A DNA stretch of 64,000 bases from Massilia aurea (GTDB lineage Bacteria > Pseudomonadota > Gammaproteobacteria > Burkholderiales > Burkholderiaceae_D): positions 1,116,001 through 1,180,000 of the forward strand of contig NZ_JACHBX010000001.1 of assembly GCF_014200505.1 (NCBI RefSeq), read 5' to 3'. Positions 37,481 through 44,301 of the stretch are shown piece by piece. Within the stretch, counting starts at the first letter, position 1, and the number at the start of each line of letters is the position of its first letter. A program made the translations under genes and the position numbers. Below the pieces are notes generated by a model. It was not told the DNA's origin, ran no database searches, and saw only the letters and a list, made by a program, of their open reading frames with translations.

Positions 37481-38488
37481 TCAGGCGTCCTGCCGGTTGG
37501 TGTTGTCGGTGTCGTTGAAGGTATCGTAGACCTGGCGCAGGCCTGCGGGCAAGGCGGCCACGGCGCCCACGAATGCCGGCTGGCCGCCCCCGGCCAGCAT
37601 GTGCAGCTTGGCCAGCCGGTCGGCCTCGCCCAGCGCAGCGGGCAGACTGGTGGATACGGTTGCGGCGTCGCCCAGATGGGCAATGGCGTGGCCGATGGCC
37701 GGTGGCAGTTCCCACTCGCCGGCAATCCCGGCCGAGATCAGGCGCGCGGCGTGCACCAGGCGCAGGCCGAAGGCATCGCTGTCGGGCAGGCCGCCGGTGG
37801 GCAACAGGCCATCGATCACGCGCAGGGCCACAACCAGCCCGACATTGTGCATCAGCCCCGCCAGATAAGCTTCGAACGGATCGGCGCCGTGGCTTGCGGC
37901 CAGCAGGCTGGCCGCCTGCGCGCATTTCTCGGACTGGTTCCACAACTGCGGCGCGACGAGGCGCGCCAGGCGGCTGGTCTGCAGGCTGATAATCCGGCGA
38001 AACGCCACGCGCGCCAGCAGCATGCGCAGACCGTTCTGGCCAAGCAGCAGCAGCGCGCCTTCCAGGTTGCGCACGGGCGAACTTGGCTGGTAGTACGGGC
38101 TGTTGACTTCGCGGAGGACTTCCGCGACCAGTACGGCGTCCTGCGCCACCTGGCGCGCAAGATCAACCGATGAAGCGGCGTCGCTGCGCAGGCTGCGCAG
38201 CACTTGCGGGATCACGGCCGGCACGCGCGGCACGAGGGTGCTTGCGGTGTGCGGATCGCGCATGAGGCGCGCCAGTTCGTCGAGTACCAGGGTTTCGTCG
38301 CCCGCAGCGCCCGTCACGTGTGGACCGGCCAGCCAGTGAAAAAATGCGAGATCCAGGTCAAGCGCGGGCTGCTCTTGGGCGAACGGCATGATCGCCGCTA
38401 CAGACGGCGGCAAGGTAGACGGGGAGGGATCATGGTCGACAGGCCCTGTGGGCGCGGCGCCAAACAGGCGTGCAAGCCAGCGCTTCAT
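37481..38488 (-). CDS. HDOD domain protein
   Basis: A 335-residue protein with an HDOD domain near residues 95-300, a signalling relative of HD phosphohydrolases. Blocks seen are LARQVAQDAVLVAEVLREVNSPYY, LEGALLLLGQNGLRMLLARVAF and LAGLMHNVGLVVAL. No partner domain is attached. The start at 38488 gives MKRWLARLFGAAP; no clear ribosome-binding site is seen there. HDOD proteins often influence biofilm or second-messenger pathways, but the substrate or partner is not evident. It forms an operon with the downstream 5'-nucleotidase gene. Confidence 0.82.
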   Translation of the reverse strand: MKRWLARLFGAAPTGPVDHDPSPSTLPPSVAAIMPFAQEQPALDLDLAFFHWLAGPHVTGAAGDETLVLDELARLMRDPHTASTLVPRVPAVIPQVLRSLRSDAASSVDLARQVAQDAVLVAEVLREVNSPYYQPSSPVRNLEGALLLLGQNGLRMLLARVAFRRIISLQTSRLARLVAPQLWNQSEKCAQAASLLAASHGADPFEAYLAGLMHNVGLVVALRVIDGLLPTGGLPDSDAFGLRLVHAARLISAGIAGEWELPPAIGHAIAHLGDAATVSTSLPAALGEADRLAKLHMLAGGGQPAFVGAVAALPAGLRQVYDTFNDTDNTNRQDA

Positions 38489-38578
38489 GGGGAGGGCACT
38501 ACGAGAGGTATGGGCATGGAGCGATTCTACCGCGCCAGCCCGACGCACGACCGGAGACCCGGCCATGCGTGAATCGCA

Positions 38579-38848
38579 TTACTGCTTCGTGTCCGAGCTG
38601 GTCGTCGTGTGACCAGTGTTGGTTGGCGTGCTGGCGGTGCCAGTAGCCATCGGCGCACCGGTATTGGCGCCATTGGTCGGGGTAATGCCCATCTGCGCAT
38701 CGACCGTCGCGTTGCCGGTCGAGCCAGCAGCCGTGGTGCCCATCGAGGACGAACCGCTGCTGCTGGTGCCCATGGTGTCGGTGGTGTTGCAACCGGCCAG
38801 TGCGAAGGCCATGATGCCGCCAATGAGTGCAGTGTGAAGAGTTTTCAT
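38579..38848 (-). CDS. Small Ser/Thr/Gly-rich lipoprotein (copy 1)
   Basis: An 89-residue putative lipoprotein with signal MKTLHTALIGGIMAFALAGC and a low-complexity mature part rich in Thr, Ser, Gly and Ala. AAGGAG lies nine bases before the start at 38848. It resembles the next gene upstream (38968-39228) in signal peptide and composition, so the two look like a tandem duplication. No function is known. Confidence 0.7.
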   Translation of the reverse strand: MKTLHTALIGGIMAFALAGCNTTDTMGTSSSGSSSMGTTAAGSTGNATVDAQMGITPTNGANTGAPMATGTASTPTNTGHTTTSSDTKQ

Positions 38849-38967
38849 AGCATTGCTCCTTGAGAGTGGAATGACATGGTCAGGTGCGGCCACCCGGAGG
38901 TGACCGACTGACTACCCACGCTCACGGTGTGCAGCTGTGGGTTCGTGCTTCTGCTTCTGCTTCCGGA

Positions 38968-39228
38968 TCAGCGGCCGGTGGCCGAGTTGGTGACTGGCTC
39001 GTTGTTGCTGGTGGTGCCCGAGGCGCTGTTCACGCCGGTGGCACCGGTGGCGCCCGAATTCCAGCTACCCTGGCCTGCGGTGGTGCTTGGGGTCTGCACC
39101 GAGCCGGTGGTCGACATCGTGCTGCTCGAGCCCGACATGCTGTCGGTCGTCTTGCTTGGCGTATCGCATGCTGCCAGCCCAAAAGCCATCATGCCTGCGA
39201 TCAGTGCGGTTCCGAGGGTGCGTGTCAT
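38968..39228 (-). CDS. Small Ser/Thr/Gly-rich lipoprotein (copy 2)
   Basis: An 86-residue putative lipoprotein with signal MTRTLGTALIAGMMAFGLAAC. The mature part is low in complexity and rich in Ser, Thr, Gly and Asn. GGAGAC precedes the start. TALI-G-MAF-LA-C is shared with copy 1, 119 bases downstream. Function is unknown. The 140 bases upstream contain two short CAGGCGTCA direct repeats (near 39346 and 39362) and nothing else I can identify. Confidence 0.7.
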   Translation of the reverse strand: MTRTLGTALIAGMMAFGLAACDTPSKTTDSMSGSSSTMSTTGSVQTPSTTAGQGSWNSGATGATGVNSASGTTSNNEPVTNSATGR

Positions 39229-39368: not shown

Positions 39369-41147
39369 TCAATGAACTTCTGCGTCGTGGGTAGCCAGCC
39401 AGTCCAGCAGCTCGGGGGCTGGTAACGGCCTGCTGTAGAAGTAGCCCTGCACTTTGTCGCACAGGTGGTTGCGCACCACATCCAGCTGCGACTGCGTTTC
39501 GATGCCCTCGGCCACCGTGGTCATCCCCAAGCTGCGGGCAACCTTGACGGTGGCTTCGATCAGCACGCGATGATGGGCGCTGGTATCGGCCTGGCAGACA
39601 AACGAGCGATCGATCTTGACCGTGTCCACGGGCAGCAGGTGCAGGCTCGACAGCGATGAATAACCGGTACCGAAGTCGTCCAGCGCCAGCTGGATGCCCA
39701 GCGTCTTCAGGTCGTGCAGGCGCTGCTGGATATCCTGGTCCTGGGCGGCGAGGCTTTCGGTCACTTCCAGCTGCAGGCAGCCCGGCGGCATGCCGGTGTC
39801 GCGCAGGATCCGCCGTACGCCGTCGATCCAGCCCGGTTGGGCGAGCTGCGCACGCGACAGGTTCACGGCCATCAGGCCGGGTGCGCGCTCGCCCAGGCGC
39901 GCGCGCCAGTCAAGAAAATCACGGCAGGCGCGTTCGAGGACGAAGTCGCCCAGCATGCCGATCAGACCGCATTCCTCGGCCACCTCGATGAAGTCGATCG
40001 GTGGCACGATGCCGCGCACCGGATGGCGCCAGCGCACCAGCGCCTCGACACCGGCGGCGTAATCGACGCCGCCACACTGCAGCAGGCGCACGACCGGCTG
40101 GTACACGACGAACAATTGTTCTTCGACCAGGGCCTGGCGCAGTTCGGCTTCGATGCCGGCGCGGCGCGCTGCGCGTTCGCGCATGCTCGGCGCGAATACC
40201 ATGTGGCGGTTGCCGCCGGCCCGCTTGGCCTCGACCATCGCGATGCCGGCGTCGCGCAGCACGTCGTCCGGCTCGCGCAGTGCGATCTCCGGGTCGTCCA
40301 GGCTCCAGGCCAGGCCGACACTGGCGCCGCAGACGATGTCATGGCCATCCACCAGATACGGGTGGGCCAGCGCATCGAGCAGGCGCAGCGCGATGCGCTC
40401 GGCATCGGCGCGCCCGCGCAGGCCGTCGAGCAGGACGACGAATTCGTCGCCGCCCGTGCGGGCTGCCAGCTGGCCGGCCTGCGTGCCTGGTTCGATGCGG
40501 CCCAGTGCCGGGCGCAGCGCGCCGCGCAGGCGATCGGCCATGTGCATCAGCAGATGGTCGCCCACGGCCTGGCCCAGGCTGTCATTGAGCTGGCGGAAGC
40601 GATCGCAATTGAGTGTCAGCACCGCGAAGCCGACGTCGGACACCGGCAGCGCCAGCAGGTGCTGCAGCGCGTCGCGCACTGCCTCGCGGTTGGGCATGCG
40701 GGTCAGGGTGTCGGTGCGGGCAGCACTGCGCAGGCGGCGCGACAGTACCTCTTGTTCGCGCTGCACTTCGAACGTGGCGTCGGCCACGGTCGCCATCAGG
40801 CGCTCGGGGTCGAGCTTCATCAGGTTGAGTGCCAATACCTGCAGGCTGCCGCTGGCCGCGTGCGGCACGCCCACTGGCAGGCGCAAGCCTTCGCAGATCA
40901 TGCCGGACGGTTCGAGAAATGCCTCGACCATGGTTGCCAGGTGCGGCGCCACGGGCGCCAGCACGTCGAACAGGTTGTCCAGGCCCTGCGCGGTGGCCAG
41001 CGGCATCAGGAGCCGCGACGCCATCGGGTTGAGCATGTCGACTGTGCCGTCGAGCGAGGTCTGGGCCAGGCCGATCGGCGCCCGGTACAGGAACTGCACC
41101 AGCGCTTCGTAGGCATCGACCGCCTCGTGCTGCACTTTAGGCTCCAT
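39369..41147 (-). CDS. PAS-GGDEF-EAL protein, probable c-di-GMP phosphodiesterase
   Basis: A 592-residue cytoplasmic protein with an N-terminal PAS-like domain (residues 10-130), GGDEF (165-325) and EAL (345-585). The EAL part keeps the catalytic set: EAL at 368-370, NLS, LEVTES, DDFGTGYSS, KIDRSF, AEGIET and QGYFYSRPL, so c-di-GMP hydrolysis is likely. The GGDEF part keeps GGDEF (232-236). However, the first metal-binding Asp of the DxDRF motif is Asn180 (LNCDRF) and there is no RxxD inhibitory site, so it is probably not a cyclase. The PAS domain is paralogous to that of the upstream cyclase. The ATG at 41147 overlaps the cyclase stop by 11 bases. The gene is third in a PYP-led operon. Confidence 0.88.
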   Translation of the reverse strand: MEPKVQHEAVDAYEALVQFLYRAPIGLAQTSLDGTVDMLNPMASRLLMPLATAQGLDNLFDVLAPVAPHLATMVEAFLEPSGMICEGLRLPVGVPHAASGSLQVLALNLMKLDPERLMATVADATFEVQREQEVLSRRLRSAARTDTLTRMPNREAVRDALQHLLALPVSDVGFAVLTLNCDRFRQLNDSLGQAVGDHLLMHMADRLRGALRPALGRIEPGTQAGQLAARTGGDEFVVLLDGLRGRADAERIALRLLDALAHPYLVDGHDIVCGASVGLAWSLDDPEIALREPDDVLRDAGIAMVEAKRAGGNRHMVFAPSMRERAARRAGIEAELRQALVEEQLFVVYQPVVRLLQCGGVDYAAGVEALVRWRHPVRGIVPPIDFIEVAEECGLIGMLGDFVLERACRDFLDWRARLGERAPGLMAVNLSRAQLAQPGWIDGVRRILRDTGMPPGCLQLEVTESLAAQDQDIQQRLHDLKTLGIQLALDDFGTGYSSLSSLHLLPVDTVKIDRSFVCQADTSAHHRVLIEATVKVARSLGMTTVAEGIETQSQLDVVRNHLCDKVQGYFYSRPLPAPELLDWLATHDAEVH

Positions 41148-42498
41148 CGAGCGCCTCCTGGGGGGCAGCGACGGTGTCGGGTTGCCAGGCCAGCGCGCGG
41201 TTGCGGCCGGCGCGCTTGGCCGTGTACAGGGCCTGGTCGGCCTGCTTGATGAGCAGGTCGACGCCGCCATGGCCGTCGAGGGCGACTGCCACGCCGGCGC
41301 TGATCGTGCACACGATCGCCTGGCCGTCGAAGCTCTTGGCATCCAGCGCGACGCGCGCGCACAGGCGTTCGGCCAGATCCAGCGCGTGCGCCAGGTCGGT
41401 CGAGGGCAGCAGCACGGCGAATTCCTCGCCGCCGATGCGCGCCACGACATCGACTTCGCGGAAGAAGTCGAGCAGGATCGCCGCCAGGTGCTGCAGCACG
41501 GCGTCGCCGCCCGGGTGCCCGTAGCGGTCGTTGATGGCCTTGAAGTGGTCGGCGTCGAGGATGATCACCGCCGTCGGCCGCGGCGCGGCGCGGCTGCGCT
41601 CGAACTCCTGGCTGGCGGCGTCGAACAGCGCGCGGCGGTTGGCCAGACCAGTGAGGTGGTCGCTGAACGCCTCGCGCCGGCGCCGCTCGGCGATGTCGCG
41701 CTTGTCGCTCACATCGCGCAGGATCAGGCAGTAGGCCGGGCCCTCTTCGCAGGGCAGGCTCGGGGCGCCATCGGCGGCTTCGCGGTCGGCTTCCGGCAAT
41801 GGCGCGATCATCACGCTGCCCCAGAATGCGCTGCCGTCGGCGCGCAGCAGGCGGCTTTCGTCCAGCGCCCAGCCGTCGGCATCGGCTTCGCGCAGGCGGT
41901 CCAGCGCGCGCTCGGGCGTGATCGCATCGTTGGGATAGAACATCGTGTAGCTCTGGCCCTCGGCGGCGGGGCCGAAGCCGGTCACGCGGCCGATGCTCGG
42001 GTTCCATTCGCACAGGCGGCCCTGGGAGTCCAGGCTGGCCAGTGCGTAATCGGTGATGCCGGTCAGGACCGCATTGAGCCAGGCGTCGTTCTGCCGCTGG
42101 CGGCATTCGCGCCGCACCTGCTCGGTGATGTCGTCGATAACGGCCATGATGCGGCTGGCGTCGAGCCGCAGCAGCGTGATCGACAGGATCTGCGGCATGC
42201 GCTTGCTGCAGCCGCTGCCGGCATGCAGGTGCACGTGCATGCCGTCGCAGATCTTGCCGCTCTGGACCGTGCTTTGCTGGCACAGGTTGCGCAGGTCGGG
42301 CGCGATGTCCTCGAGCGCGACGAACAGGTTATCGAGCCCGCCATTGCGTGAGTGCGGCATCAGGAGCTGGGCCGCAATCGGGTTGATCATGGCGATTTCG
42401 CCATCGGCGTCGAGCTGCACCAGCCCAACCGGGGCGAGATACAGGAACTGGATCAGCGCCTCATATTCCGCGCTGAGCTGGGCGAGGTCGTCAGTCAC
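41137..42498 (-). CDS. PAS-PAS-GGDEF diguanylate cyclase
   Basis: A 453-residue cytoplasmic diguanylate cyclase that makes c-di-GMP from two GTP. The first PAS-like domain (about 10-125; YEALIQFLYLAPVGLVQ...) closely resembles that of the following EAL protein. A second PAS domain with PAC (about 138-270) has LCEWNPSIGRVTGFG. GGDEF spans about 278-440 with metal site D315/D317 in DADHFK, active loop GGEEF (356-360) and a complete RxxD product-inhibition site (R347-D350) five residues before it. It starts with GTG in a GTGA overlap with the PYP stop, so it is translationally coupled to the photoreceptor. Confidence 0.9.
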   Translation of the reverse strand: MTDDLAQLSAEYEALIQFLYLAPVGLVQLDADGEIAMINPIAAQLLMPHSRNGGLDNLFVALEDIAPDLRNLCQQSTVQSGKICDGMHVHLHAGSGCSKRMPQILSITLLRLDASRIMAVIDDITEQVRRECRQRQNDAWLNAVLTGITDYALASLDSQGRLCEWNPSIGRVTGFGPAAEGQSYTMFYPNDAITPERALDRLREADADGWALDESRLLRADGSAFWGSVMIAPLPEADREAADGAPSLPCEEGPAYCLILRDVSDKRDIAERRRREAFSDHLTGLANRRALFDAASQEFERSRAAPRPTAVIILDADHFKAINDRYGHPGGDAVLQHLAAILLDFFREVDVVARIGGEEFAVLLPSTDLAHALDLAERLCARVALDAKSFDGQAIVCTISAGVAVALDGHGGVDLLIKQADQALYTAKRAGRNRALAWQPDTVAAPQEALDGA

Positions 42499-42878
42499 TT
42501 TGGCTGCCGCTTGACAAGAACGTAACGCGTGGCGCTGCCCGGGGTGGACAGCAGGCGCAGGGCGACTTTGACCGGACGCATGCGCAGCGTCAGGACGTAG
42601 TCGATGGTTTCGTCGAGCGCGACGTTTTGTTCCAGCGCGTCATCGAAACGCTGCGCCACCATGAAGTTGTTCATGCATGGTGCGACGTTGGTAAACAGCG
42701 GCTGGCCCAGGACGCGCTGCGGCGACAGGCCGGCGGCTTGCGACTCGAACGCGTTGTACTGGTTGACCTCGGTGTTCGCGTCGAAACCGATGACGCCAAA
42801 ATCGAGCTGGTCCAGTTCTTCAGGAGAACACGCGTCGAGTCGGCTGGCCATCTCGGGAAAGTCAAAGGCAAAAGTCAT
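42495..42878 (-). CDS. pyp: Photoactive yellow protein (PYP) photoreceptor
   Basis: A 127-residue PAS photoreceptor that should bind p-coumaric acid through a thioester and sense blue light. Against Halorhodospira PYP as I remember it, the alignment is gapless from the N-terminal cap (FAF...L...ELDQLDFGVI against VAF...L...QLDGLAFGAI) through the chromophore region, with one inserted residue near 86. The chromophore Cys is C68 (NVAPC; Cys69 in PYP). Tyr42 is Y41 and Glu46 is E45 in QYNAFE; Met100 is M100; the closing block is YVLVKR. Two pocket residues differ: Thr50 is Ala and Arg52 is Leu. The start at 42878 matches PYP length but has no obvious ribosome-binding site; in-frame starts at 42917, 42929 and 42971 (GTG) exist. 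It is divergent from the ligase and overlaps the cyclase. Confidence 0.88.
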   Translation of the reverse strand: MTFAFDFPEMASRLDACSPEELDQLDFGVIGFDANTEVNQYNAFESQAAGLSPQRVLGQPLFTNVAPCMNNFMVAQRFDDALEQNVALDETIDYVLTLRMRPVKVALRLLSTPGSATRYVLVKRQPK

Positions 42879-43071
42879 GAATTGGGTGCCGACGCGCGGC
42901 CATTGGATATTGGTCATCGATGTTGCCATGTGCAATAAACGCGTGTCAATTGCCCATTTGCAACAATTCACTATTTAATTGCGAGAATGCGTCTTTCACC
43001 ACAGTCCGCGGCAAATTGACAGCCTCGTGTTTCAACGTCACCATGCCTTCCTCTTCATGTTCTCACATTTC
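42879..43071. promoter_or_regulatory. Divergent promoter region between pyp and its ligase
   Basis: A 193-base divergent region, noticeably more AT-rich in the middle. On the plus strand TTGCCC (42950-42955) and TATTTA (42972-42977) with a 16-base spacer form a candidate sigma-70 promoter for the ligase. On the minus strand TTGACA (42949-42944) is a perfect -35, but no good -10 is spaced from it. Starts of both genes are uncertain, so part of this region may be coding. Confidence 0.4.
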
Positions 43072-44301
43072 ATGACATATACACCGGATGATGCGGCCCG
43101 TTGGTGGCGCGACGGGACGGGCTTGCAGCGCGTGGTTGCCGACCTGCTGGGCGCTGAATTGGCGGCGCTGCGGCCTGGCAGGCAGACGCTGGCGCAACCC
43201 TGGCCGGCGTCGCTCGATCTGCGCGTGGACCTGGGCGCCGATTCCCTCGAGCTGATGGGACTGGCGTCGGCGCTCGAAACCCAGTTGCACCTGCAGGGGA
43301 CGGCCGACGCGCCGCTGCTGAAGCACACGCGTCTGGGTGACTGGCTGGATGCGGCGCGCGCCGGCCTGGATGCCCACGGCAGCGCGCTGACGTTTCGTAC
43401 CTCTGGCAGCAGCGGCGCGCCCAAGCCATGCACGCATCGGCTGGCCTTGTTGTGGCAAGAAGTCGACGCGCTCGCCGAATTGCTGCCCGGCCGCCGGCGC
43501 ATCGTCAGCCTAGTGCCGGCGCACCATATCTATGGCTTCCTGTTTACCGTCCTGCTGCCGCGCCGTCTGGGTATCGACGCCGTGTGCGACCTGCGCGGCC
43601 ATGCGCCGACGGCGCTGGCTGTCCAGCTGACGGCGGGTGATCTCGTCATCGGGCATCCCGATCTGTGGCGTGCGTTCGGCCAGGCCGCCGGGCCGCTGGC
43701 GCCGGACATCGTCGGCGTGACCTCGACGGCGCCGTGTCCGCTAGATGTGGCCCGTGCTGCGCTCGGCACGGGATTGGCGCGGCTGGTGCAGGTGTATGGC
43801 AGCTCCGAGACCGCTGGCGTCGGCTGGCGCGACGAACCCGAGGGCGGCTATACGATGTTCCCGTATTGGTCACGCGATGTCCAAGGCGATGGGCTGGTGC
43901 GCCAGTGTCCTGACGGGACGCGTCAGCCAGCCATGCTGCAGGACCGGCTGGCGTGGCGTGACGACGGGCGTTTCCAGCCGGATGGGCGCATCGACCAGGC
44001 GGTGCAGGTCGGCGGCGTCAATGTGTTTCCGGGTTATGTGGCCGATGTGCTGCGGCTGCATCCGGCCGTGCTGGAGGCCAGCGTGCGCCGTATGCGGCCT
44101 GATGAAGGCGAGCGGCTCAAGGCCTTCGTGGTGGTGCGTGACGGCATGACGTTTGATGCCGGTCTGCAGACCAGTTTGCACACCTGGCTGAGCGAGCGCC
44201 TGACGGCGCCCGAATGCCCGGCAGCGTATTCGTTCGGGCCGCGCCTGCCGCGTGGAACGAGCGGCAAGCTGGCCGACTGGATCATCGACAGCGAAGTCTA
44301 G
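43072..44301 (+). CDS. p-Hydroxycinnamate (4-coumarate) ligase of the PYP-activation family
   Basis: AMP-forming ligase of about 409 residues that should activate p-coumaric acid for attachment to PYP. Adenylation motifs are TSGSSG (110-115), the YGSSE block (242-246), GRIDQAVQVGGVNVFP (306-320) and the closing catalytic lysine K399 in PRGTSGK. The protein is much shorter than ordinary 4-coumarate-CoA ligases (about 540 residues), as in the PYP-associated family. Residues 15-100 look like an acyl-carrier domain: LGADSLELMGLASALE contains a DSL serine (S58), the usual phosphopantetheine site. In-frame starts at 43057 and 43027 are possible and no start has a clear ribosome-binding site. Divergence from pyp supports the assignment. 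Confidence 0.82.
   Translation: MTYTPDDAARWWRDGTGLQRVVADLLGAELAALRPGRQTLAQPWPASLDLRVDLGADSLELMGLASALETQLHLQGTADAPLLKHTRLGDWLDAARAGLDAHGSALTFRTSGSSGAPKPCTHRLALLWQEVDALAELLPGRRRIVSLVPAHHIYGFLFTVLLPRRLGIDAVCDLRGHAPTALAVQLTAGDLVIGHPDLWRAFGQAAGPLAPDIVGVTSTAPCPLDVARAALGTGLARLVQVYGSSETAGVGWRDEPEGGYTMFPYWSRDVQGDGLVRQCPDGTRQPAMLQDRLAWRDDGRFQPDGRIDQAVQVGGVNVFPGYVADVLRLHPAVLEASVRRMRPDEGERLKAFVVVRDGMTFDAGLQTSLHTWLSERLTAPECPAAYSFGPRLPRGTSGKLADWIIDSEV

Follow-up and report, generated by a model that had tools for sequence, protein, structure and literature searches.

The window, a 64,000-nucleotide stretch of Massilia aurea DNA (contig NZ_JACHBX010000001.1, positions 1,116,001 to 1,180,000; the genome assembly has 16 contigs totalling 5.39 Mb), carries a four-gene locus that encodes a photoactive yellow protein (PYP), a diguanylate cyclase, a phosphodiesterase for cyclic di-GMP (c-di-GMP) and a PYP-type 4-coumarate ligase. 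Judged by profiles and motifs, this is an authentic PYP/c-di-GMP operon of a published kind; two of its features are absent from the literature text covered: a PAS domain shared by the two enzymes, a candidate PYP receiver that in relatives also appears on kinases, and a ligase domain resembling a carrier protein. A first-pass annotation of this DNA had located all four genes correctly, together with their overlaps and the diverging AMP-forming ligase, and its picture of one operon encoding a PYP-family protein, a cyclase and a phosphodiesterase that both look intact, alongside a PYP-type ligase, is supported by profiles and motifs. The N-terminal domain common to both enzymes (hereafter the N-domain) and the carrier-like ligase domain were absent from it. 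The features of the locus are as follows.

42495..42878, minus strand: PYP, clade C type, 127 aa (open reading frame (ORF) reading and profile matches)
42675..42677, minus strand: codon of Cys68, the chromophore cysteine (read from sequence)
41137..42498, minus strand: diguanylate cyclase, N-domain-PAS-GGDEF, 453 aa, GTG start (ORF, motifs, Pfam)
42093..42498, minus strand: cyclase N-domain, PAS-fold, candidate PYP receiver (BLASTP, profile, structure prediction)
41779..42033, minus strand: second PAS of the cyclase (Pfam PAS_9)
41197..41670, minus strand: GGDEF domain of the cyclase (Pfam)
39369..41147, minus strand: N-domain-GGDEF-EAL c-di-GMP phosphodiesterase, 592 aa (ORF, motifs, Pfam)
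40743..41147, minus strand: phosphodiesterase N-domain (45% identity to the cyclase N-domain over 123 aa)
40206..40718, minus strand: phosphodiesterase GGDEF domain, which has its GGDEF motif (Pfam and reading)
39426..40148, minus strand: EAL domain of the phosphodiesterase (Pfam)
42879..43071, no strand: divergent intergenic region between pyp and the ligase gene, 193 bp (simple promoter scan)
43072..44301, plus strand: PYP-type 4-coumarate ligase, 409 aa, a carrier-like N-terminus followed by a short AMP-forming ligase (profiles)
43114..43377, plus strand: acyl-carrier-like domain at the ligase N-terminus, modelled as a helical bundle (profile and model)
43243..43245, plus strand: codon of ligase Ser58 (GADSLE), predicted phosphopantetheine attachment site (alignments)

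The pyp stop overlaps the GTG start of the cyclase gene by four bases (GTGA), the cyclase and GGDEF-EAL genes share 11 bases, and the four genes are not interrupted by any regulator gene. In-frame ATGs occur 5' of the chosen PYP start, so its exact position is unsettled; a simple scan of 42879..43071 found no sigma-70-like site. By profile searches, the genome holds one PYP and two N-domains, both inside this operon.

The family assignments proposed at first pass hold at the level of profile matches, with E values of 2.1e-20 for the PYP against TIGR02373 (residues 9-124) and 5.1e-93 for the ligase against TIGR02372; the curated cut-offs are missed by both (73.1 against 143.05 bits and 311.8 against 334.7 bits). 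As TIGR02373 captures 20% of the PYP homologues that BLAST retrieves (Xing 2022, PMC9664959), its shortfall is treated as a narrow threshold, not as a defining trait. The closest solved sequences in a PDB sequence search are Ppr-PYP and PYP chains, the protein is 97% identical to the PYP of Massilia aurea at locus L095, and alignment equates Tyr41, Glu45 and Cys68 (VAPCMNN) with Tyr42, Glu46 and Cys69 of H. halophila PYP, the equivalents already read in this 127-residue homologue by the first-pass annotation. Across 116 distinct sequences of the class, Cys69 is kept in all 116, Glu46 in 115, and Tyr42 and Met100 in 114 each. A chance or misannotated PYP is excluded by the profile match, nearest solved sequences, alignment and residue conservation. 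As had been claimed, the protein is without an output domain of its own: none was found by profile or Pfam scan.

Residue traits, not a tree with the published clades, assign this PYP to clade C, in which Phe92, Phe96 and Trp119 are not conserved and Met100 is (Xing 2022, PMC9664959); the window protein has Ile92, Leu96, Tyr119 and Met100. Within the 116 sequences, position 50 is Ala in 108, position 52 Leu in 115, position 96 Leu in 112 and position 119 Tyr in 105. At L195:5849-6223 and in several plasmid records, PYPs bear the label 'hypothetical protein' or 'phosphonate transporter', and misannotated PYPs are likewise noted by Xing 2022 (PMC9664959). The gene that precedes the N-domain cyclase in Indioceanicola, annotated as hypothetical, is a clade C PYP.

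Both enzymes look active, as far as motif conservation can tell. By reading, the cyclase has GGEEF and an upstream RxxD inhibitory site (I-site), and it matches Pfam GGDEF at 3.7e-45; the phosphodiesterase matches Pfam EAL at 7.2e-70 and reads EALVRW and DDFGTGYSSL; Pfam confirms the GGDEF domain, the EAL domain and the second PAS of the cyclase. Across the loci, cyclases keep GG[DE]EF in 62/64 and the I-site in 60/64, and EAL domains keep the EAL motif in 72/72 and DDFG in 70/72. Of 77 phosphodiesterase segments counted, 25 lack the GGDEF motif, as would be expected if this domain is regulatory there.

A shared N-terminal domain beside PYP

The first 130 residues of the cyclase and the phosphodiesterase align at 45% identity (BLASTP). 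The first PAS of both enzymes falls below Pfam thresholds, a scan of 82 N-domains against Pfam gives a few PAS matches (best E 0.044), and neither the N-domain alone nor an N-domain profile matches any PDB sequence at E up to 1. For the cyclase copy, structure prediction gives a PAS fold with helices at both ends (predicted local distance difference test score 86), most similar among PDB structures to PAS domains or to sensor proteins that contain them; on the strength of this prediction for the cyclase copy, the N-domain is assigned to the PAS domains. A duplicate of PYP inside the enzymes was considered and rejected: the structures it resembles are PAS domains in general, and the PYP entries among them do not rank first.

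Among the genomes searched, the N-domain is nearly confined to those with a clade C PYP. In a family sample of 245 genomes (PYP at E 1e-3, N-domain at E 1e-8), PYP occurs in 47 and the N-domain in 48, which include 47/47 PYP-positive and 1/198 PYP-negative genomes (Fisher p about 7e-50, a value that ignores shared descent). An order sample of 399 genomes, a new draw partly overlapping the family sample, has the N-domain in 11, every one of which also encodes a clade C PYP; PYP occurs in 12, and the remaining genome (G366) carries four distant PYPs only. On 72,556 plasmids, with both profiles at E 1e-5, the N-domain is found in 11 records and PYP in 13, all 11 being among the 13; a Niveispirillum plasmid has a clade A-like PYP and no N-domain on its record. 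The association extends to gene order: in 80 named loci fetched with the PYP profile (the best 80 of 184), the N-domain follows PYP directly in 80/80, starting at most 200 bp from the PYP end, and in 11 loci centred on clade A-like PYPs the N-domain is found in 0/11 and an adjacent ligase in 11/11. Four congeneric genomes (G015, G055, G078 and G097) encode a phosphodiesterase-type N-domain protein on a different contig from pyp, perhaps through one event. The four PYP genes of G366 are clade A-like and cluster in a 3.5-kb segment that also holds a distant relative of the AMP-ligase, which they surround (L179, G366:C1:133878-137370).

By sequence, the output domain attached to the N-domain changes and the N-domain stays beside PYP. 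A cyclase and a phosphodiesterase, each with an N-domain, are present in 56 of the 80 loci, and the exact four-gene layout of the window, divergent ligase included, in 27; a single enzyme is found in others, as N-domain-GGDEF-EAL alone (9/80) or N-domain-PAS-GGDEF alone (4/80), and at L129 and L140 both N-domains sit within one chain. The N-domain is kept in loci without a cyclase or with partners that have no second PAS. HisKA-HATPase kinases are fused to an N-domain directly after PYP at L183, L178 and L169, and at L166/L180 and L182 an N-domain kinase, recognised by motifs, follows PYP and a phosphodiesterase. L169 is labelled as an Archangium metagenome-assembled genome, for which a binning error is possible.

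The N-domain is the only part common to all partners, and this is the main reason for proposing it as a receiver: the free-standing PYP would act on both enzymes through the shared N-domain, making one light switch out of separate proteins, a reading to which we give a probability of about 0.58. In this mechanism the ligase would activate p-coumarate, which would end as a thioester on the cysteine of the clade C PYP; blue light would drive the PYP photocycle; and PYP would then contact, or release, the N-domain at the start of both enzymes. Because the N-domain sits on the cyclase and the phosphodiesterase of overlapping genes, one photoreceptor could tip the balance between c-di-GMP synthesis and breakdown in either direction. 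Chromophore binding, the PYP/N-domain contact and the light effect are all steps that we infer. If the proposal is right, two enzymes with opposing activities in a single operon have received the same portable PAS module, and the N-domain could serve as a building block for putting c-di-GMP under light control.

Several observations weigh against the receiver proposal. The pocket of clade C differs (T50A, R52L, F96L), and its photochemistry thus cannot be assumed; the kinase-linked PYP of L178 (6413-6730) keeps Cys69, whereas His replaces Tyr42 and Ala replaces Glu46, and it appears to be the sole sequence of the class without both residues. Adjacent genes are lost together, so the co-occurrence counts are not independent and are weaker than the p value. 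One genome (G072, locus L175) encodes an N-domain-PAS-GGDEF cyclase without a detectable PYP, a TetR gene standing upstream at the expected place of pyp, and a Comamonadaceae plasmid (L201, CP099603.1) carries a clade C PYP with no N-domain on the plasmid record, to which the search was confined, leaving out the chromosome. Finally, in a distance-based mirror-tree test over 53 of the 80 loci, the partial correlations with PYP are 0.11 for the cyclase N-domain and 0.01 for the phosphodiesterase N-domain, compared with 0.21 for the second PAS, 0.21 for the phosphodiesterase GGDEF, 0.20 for EAL and -0.08 for the cyclase GGDEF; the N-domain values exceed only that of the cyclase GGDEF, and the N-domain as point of contact is therefore unsupported by this test. 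Next to the clade C PYP of L201 are a BLUF protein and a PAS sensor protein of large size.

The mirror-tree result, which favours other domains over the N-domain, would fit an N-domain that serves for dimerisation or heterodimerisation and pairs the enzymes, with PYP acting on some other part or on the assembled complex. PAS domains often dimerise, the N-domain model has helices at both ends, and both enzymes carry the domain. The same domain is nevertheless found in loci with a single enzyme beside PYP (9 and 4 of the 80, as given above, where a second N-domain protein may lie elsewhere in the genome) and on histidine kinases, and a mere dimerisation domain is not expected to be near-confined to PYP-positive genomes, which leaves this explanation unlikely. 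Gene neighbourhood alone cannot show contact, and the genes might simply be co-regulated neighbours, the effect of PYP on the enzymes being an indirect one, mediated by transcription or cell physiology, for instance. This we regard as improbable, considering that the PYP has no detected output domain, that no regulator gene lies among the four, and that the N-domain remains beside PYP through the changes of output domain.

Ligase, carrier-like domain and chromophore supply

The match of the ligase to TIGR02372 spans model positions 8-386 of 386, and Pfam AMP-binding and AMP-binding_C score above their cut-offs. By reading, its catalytic motifs are TSGSSGAPKP and a C-terminal lysine motif. Close relatives, defined at E 1e-30 with at most seven candidates scored per genome, occur in 29 of the 245 family genomes, 28 of the 29 being PYP-positive; under the same scoring, 19 of the 47 PYP-positive family genomes have none. 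A phylum-wide TIGR02372 search of 398 genomes at E 1e-50 found only the own genome and one of the same genus, and plasmid records yielded named reference ligases.

Beyond the window, the genome has, besides the aromatic amino acid lyase of the hut cluster, a second one outside it (L094:1354-2958), which scores below every listed NCBIfam cut-off and could be the source of p-coumarate; a preference for Tyr is a guess of ours from a His-Leu motif. By reading, it adjoins thioesterase-like and short-chain dehydrogenase-like genes.

These data bear on whether the PYP has kept its fold and lost light sensing, binding another ligand or none and answering to a non-light signal. The TIGR02373 shortfall, the substitutions of the class (T50A, R52L, F92I, F96L, W119Y) and the PYP genomes without a close ligase relative speak for such a loss, as does the lack of a characterised clade C PYP as of Xing 2022 (PMC9664959). 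They are countered by the near-complete retention of Cys69, Glu46, Tyr42 and Met100, by the almost exclusive occurrence of the ligase in PYP-positive family genomes and by the additional lyase in the own genome; a PYP blind to light seems a poor bet.

Ahead of the adenylating part, the ligase has a carrier-like domain. Its N-terminal 109 aa alone reach 21.2 bits with Pfam PP-binding (gathering threshold 20.8), the whole protein 17.7 bits, and the first 109 residues match PP-binding in 27/35 ligase members at E up to 1. A profile of the domain matches a PigH domain (4.8e-5) and then acyl carrier proteins, including complex I counterparts, among the best 60 of 95 matches. The predicted model is a helical bundle, whose best 50 of 269 PDB structure matches are carrier proteins by title or, where the title names a larger complex, by its presumed composition; TM-scores by target reach 0.79, and the best E is 0.028, with none at 0.001. 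The DSL motif is present in 35/35 aligned sequences, and helix 58-72 of the model starts at Ser58; in overlapping sets, the DSL serine motif is kept in 28/28 family rows including the own one, 38/38 named-locus rows and 7/7 with Alphaproteobacteria. Two phosphopantetheinyl transferase family matches occur in the own genome.

In the account of Dohmen 2025 (PMC12826048), pCL attaches p-coumarate to coenzyme A. The domain seen here suggests that p-coumarate may be loaded via the carrier domain instead of free coenzyme A, and raises a second testable question, that of chromophore delivery. The two proposals taken together, a portable PYP receiver N-domain giving light control in trans to any output plus carrier-based chromophore loading, are put forward tentatively, with the odds somewhat against the pair.

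Relation to known systems and neighbouring genes

The first-pass annotation knew of no described system with this four-gene layout. That novelty is ruled out by two surveys and by relatives: besides the 27 loci with the exact layout, a Caballeronia plasmid carries a consecutive run of four genes homologous to those of the window locus. Clade C PYPs adjoin GGDEF and EAL proteins in Burkholderiales, with a model drawn (Xing 2022, PMC9664959), and the 113 pyp operons analysed by Dohmen 2025 (PMC12826048) include GGDEF in 29, EAL in 22 and pCL in 42, with a proposal of biofilm control via c-di-GMP. The system of Xing 2022 shares with the window the PYP clade (by residues), the neighbours and the model of PYP modulating GGDEF/EAL proteins; the text covered describes no shared N-terminal domain, near-confinement, kinase swap or ligase carrier domain. 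Dohmen 2025 gives the same gene associations as the window, and the text covered names neither a mechanism for them nor a receiver domain.

In Idiomarina loihiensis, a single-domain PYP lies beside a GGDEF protein and has a biofilm effect (van der Horst 2009, via PMC9664959 and PMC12826048); that PYP belongs to clade A by Xing 2022, unlike the clade C PYP of the window. Ppd and Ppr are fusions of PYP and phytochrome with GGDEF/EAL or with a kinase (via PMC9664959 and PMC12826048): PYP is likewise coupled to c-di-GMP enzymes or a kinase, but within one chain. A Ppd-type fusion was rejected for the window, where PYP is a separate 127-aa protein and no phytochrome is found among the four genes. 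By its title, the work of Kim et al. 2021 on Rhodobacter capsulatus Rc-PYP and a PYP-binding protein describes a separate partner for a single-domain PYP. Plasmids of Caballeronia sp. M1242, Methylobacterium FF17, Sphingomonas insulae and Rhizobium tumorigenes have PYP, N-domain cyclase, ligase and EAL protein close together, differing from the window in gene order and strand; no N-domain was detected in the Methylobacterium FF17 EAL protein.

Literature searches found no paper joining PYP with Massilia. By title or abstract opening, papers on PYP and phosphopantetheine include none on this ligase. In one paper that brings up PYP, coumarate, a ligase and an acyl carrier together, the carrier passage is about flexirubin. 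The text covered, with figures, supplements and most subscription papers outside its scope, describes neither an N-domain receiver nor a ligase carrier domain. Although PYP is a textbook photoreceptor, signalling by free-standing PYPs is called an important gap in the abstract of Dohmen 2025 (PMC12826048), and the partner of H. halophila PYP remains unidentified according to a 2026 abstract (PMC13250908). With a domain of about 130 residues that accompanies three output types next to clade C PYPs, this signalling gap becomes a simple binding experiment.

Downstream of the operon, two small lipoprotein-like genes adjoin each other (38579-38893 and 38968-39228); neither has a Pfam match, and their signal regions are 67% identical over 21 aa. 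About 0.8 kb past the phosphodiesterase gene and sharing its strand, an HDOD-domain protein is encoded at 37481-38566.

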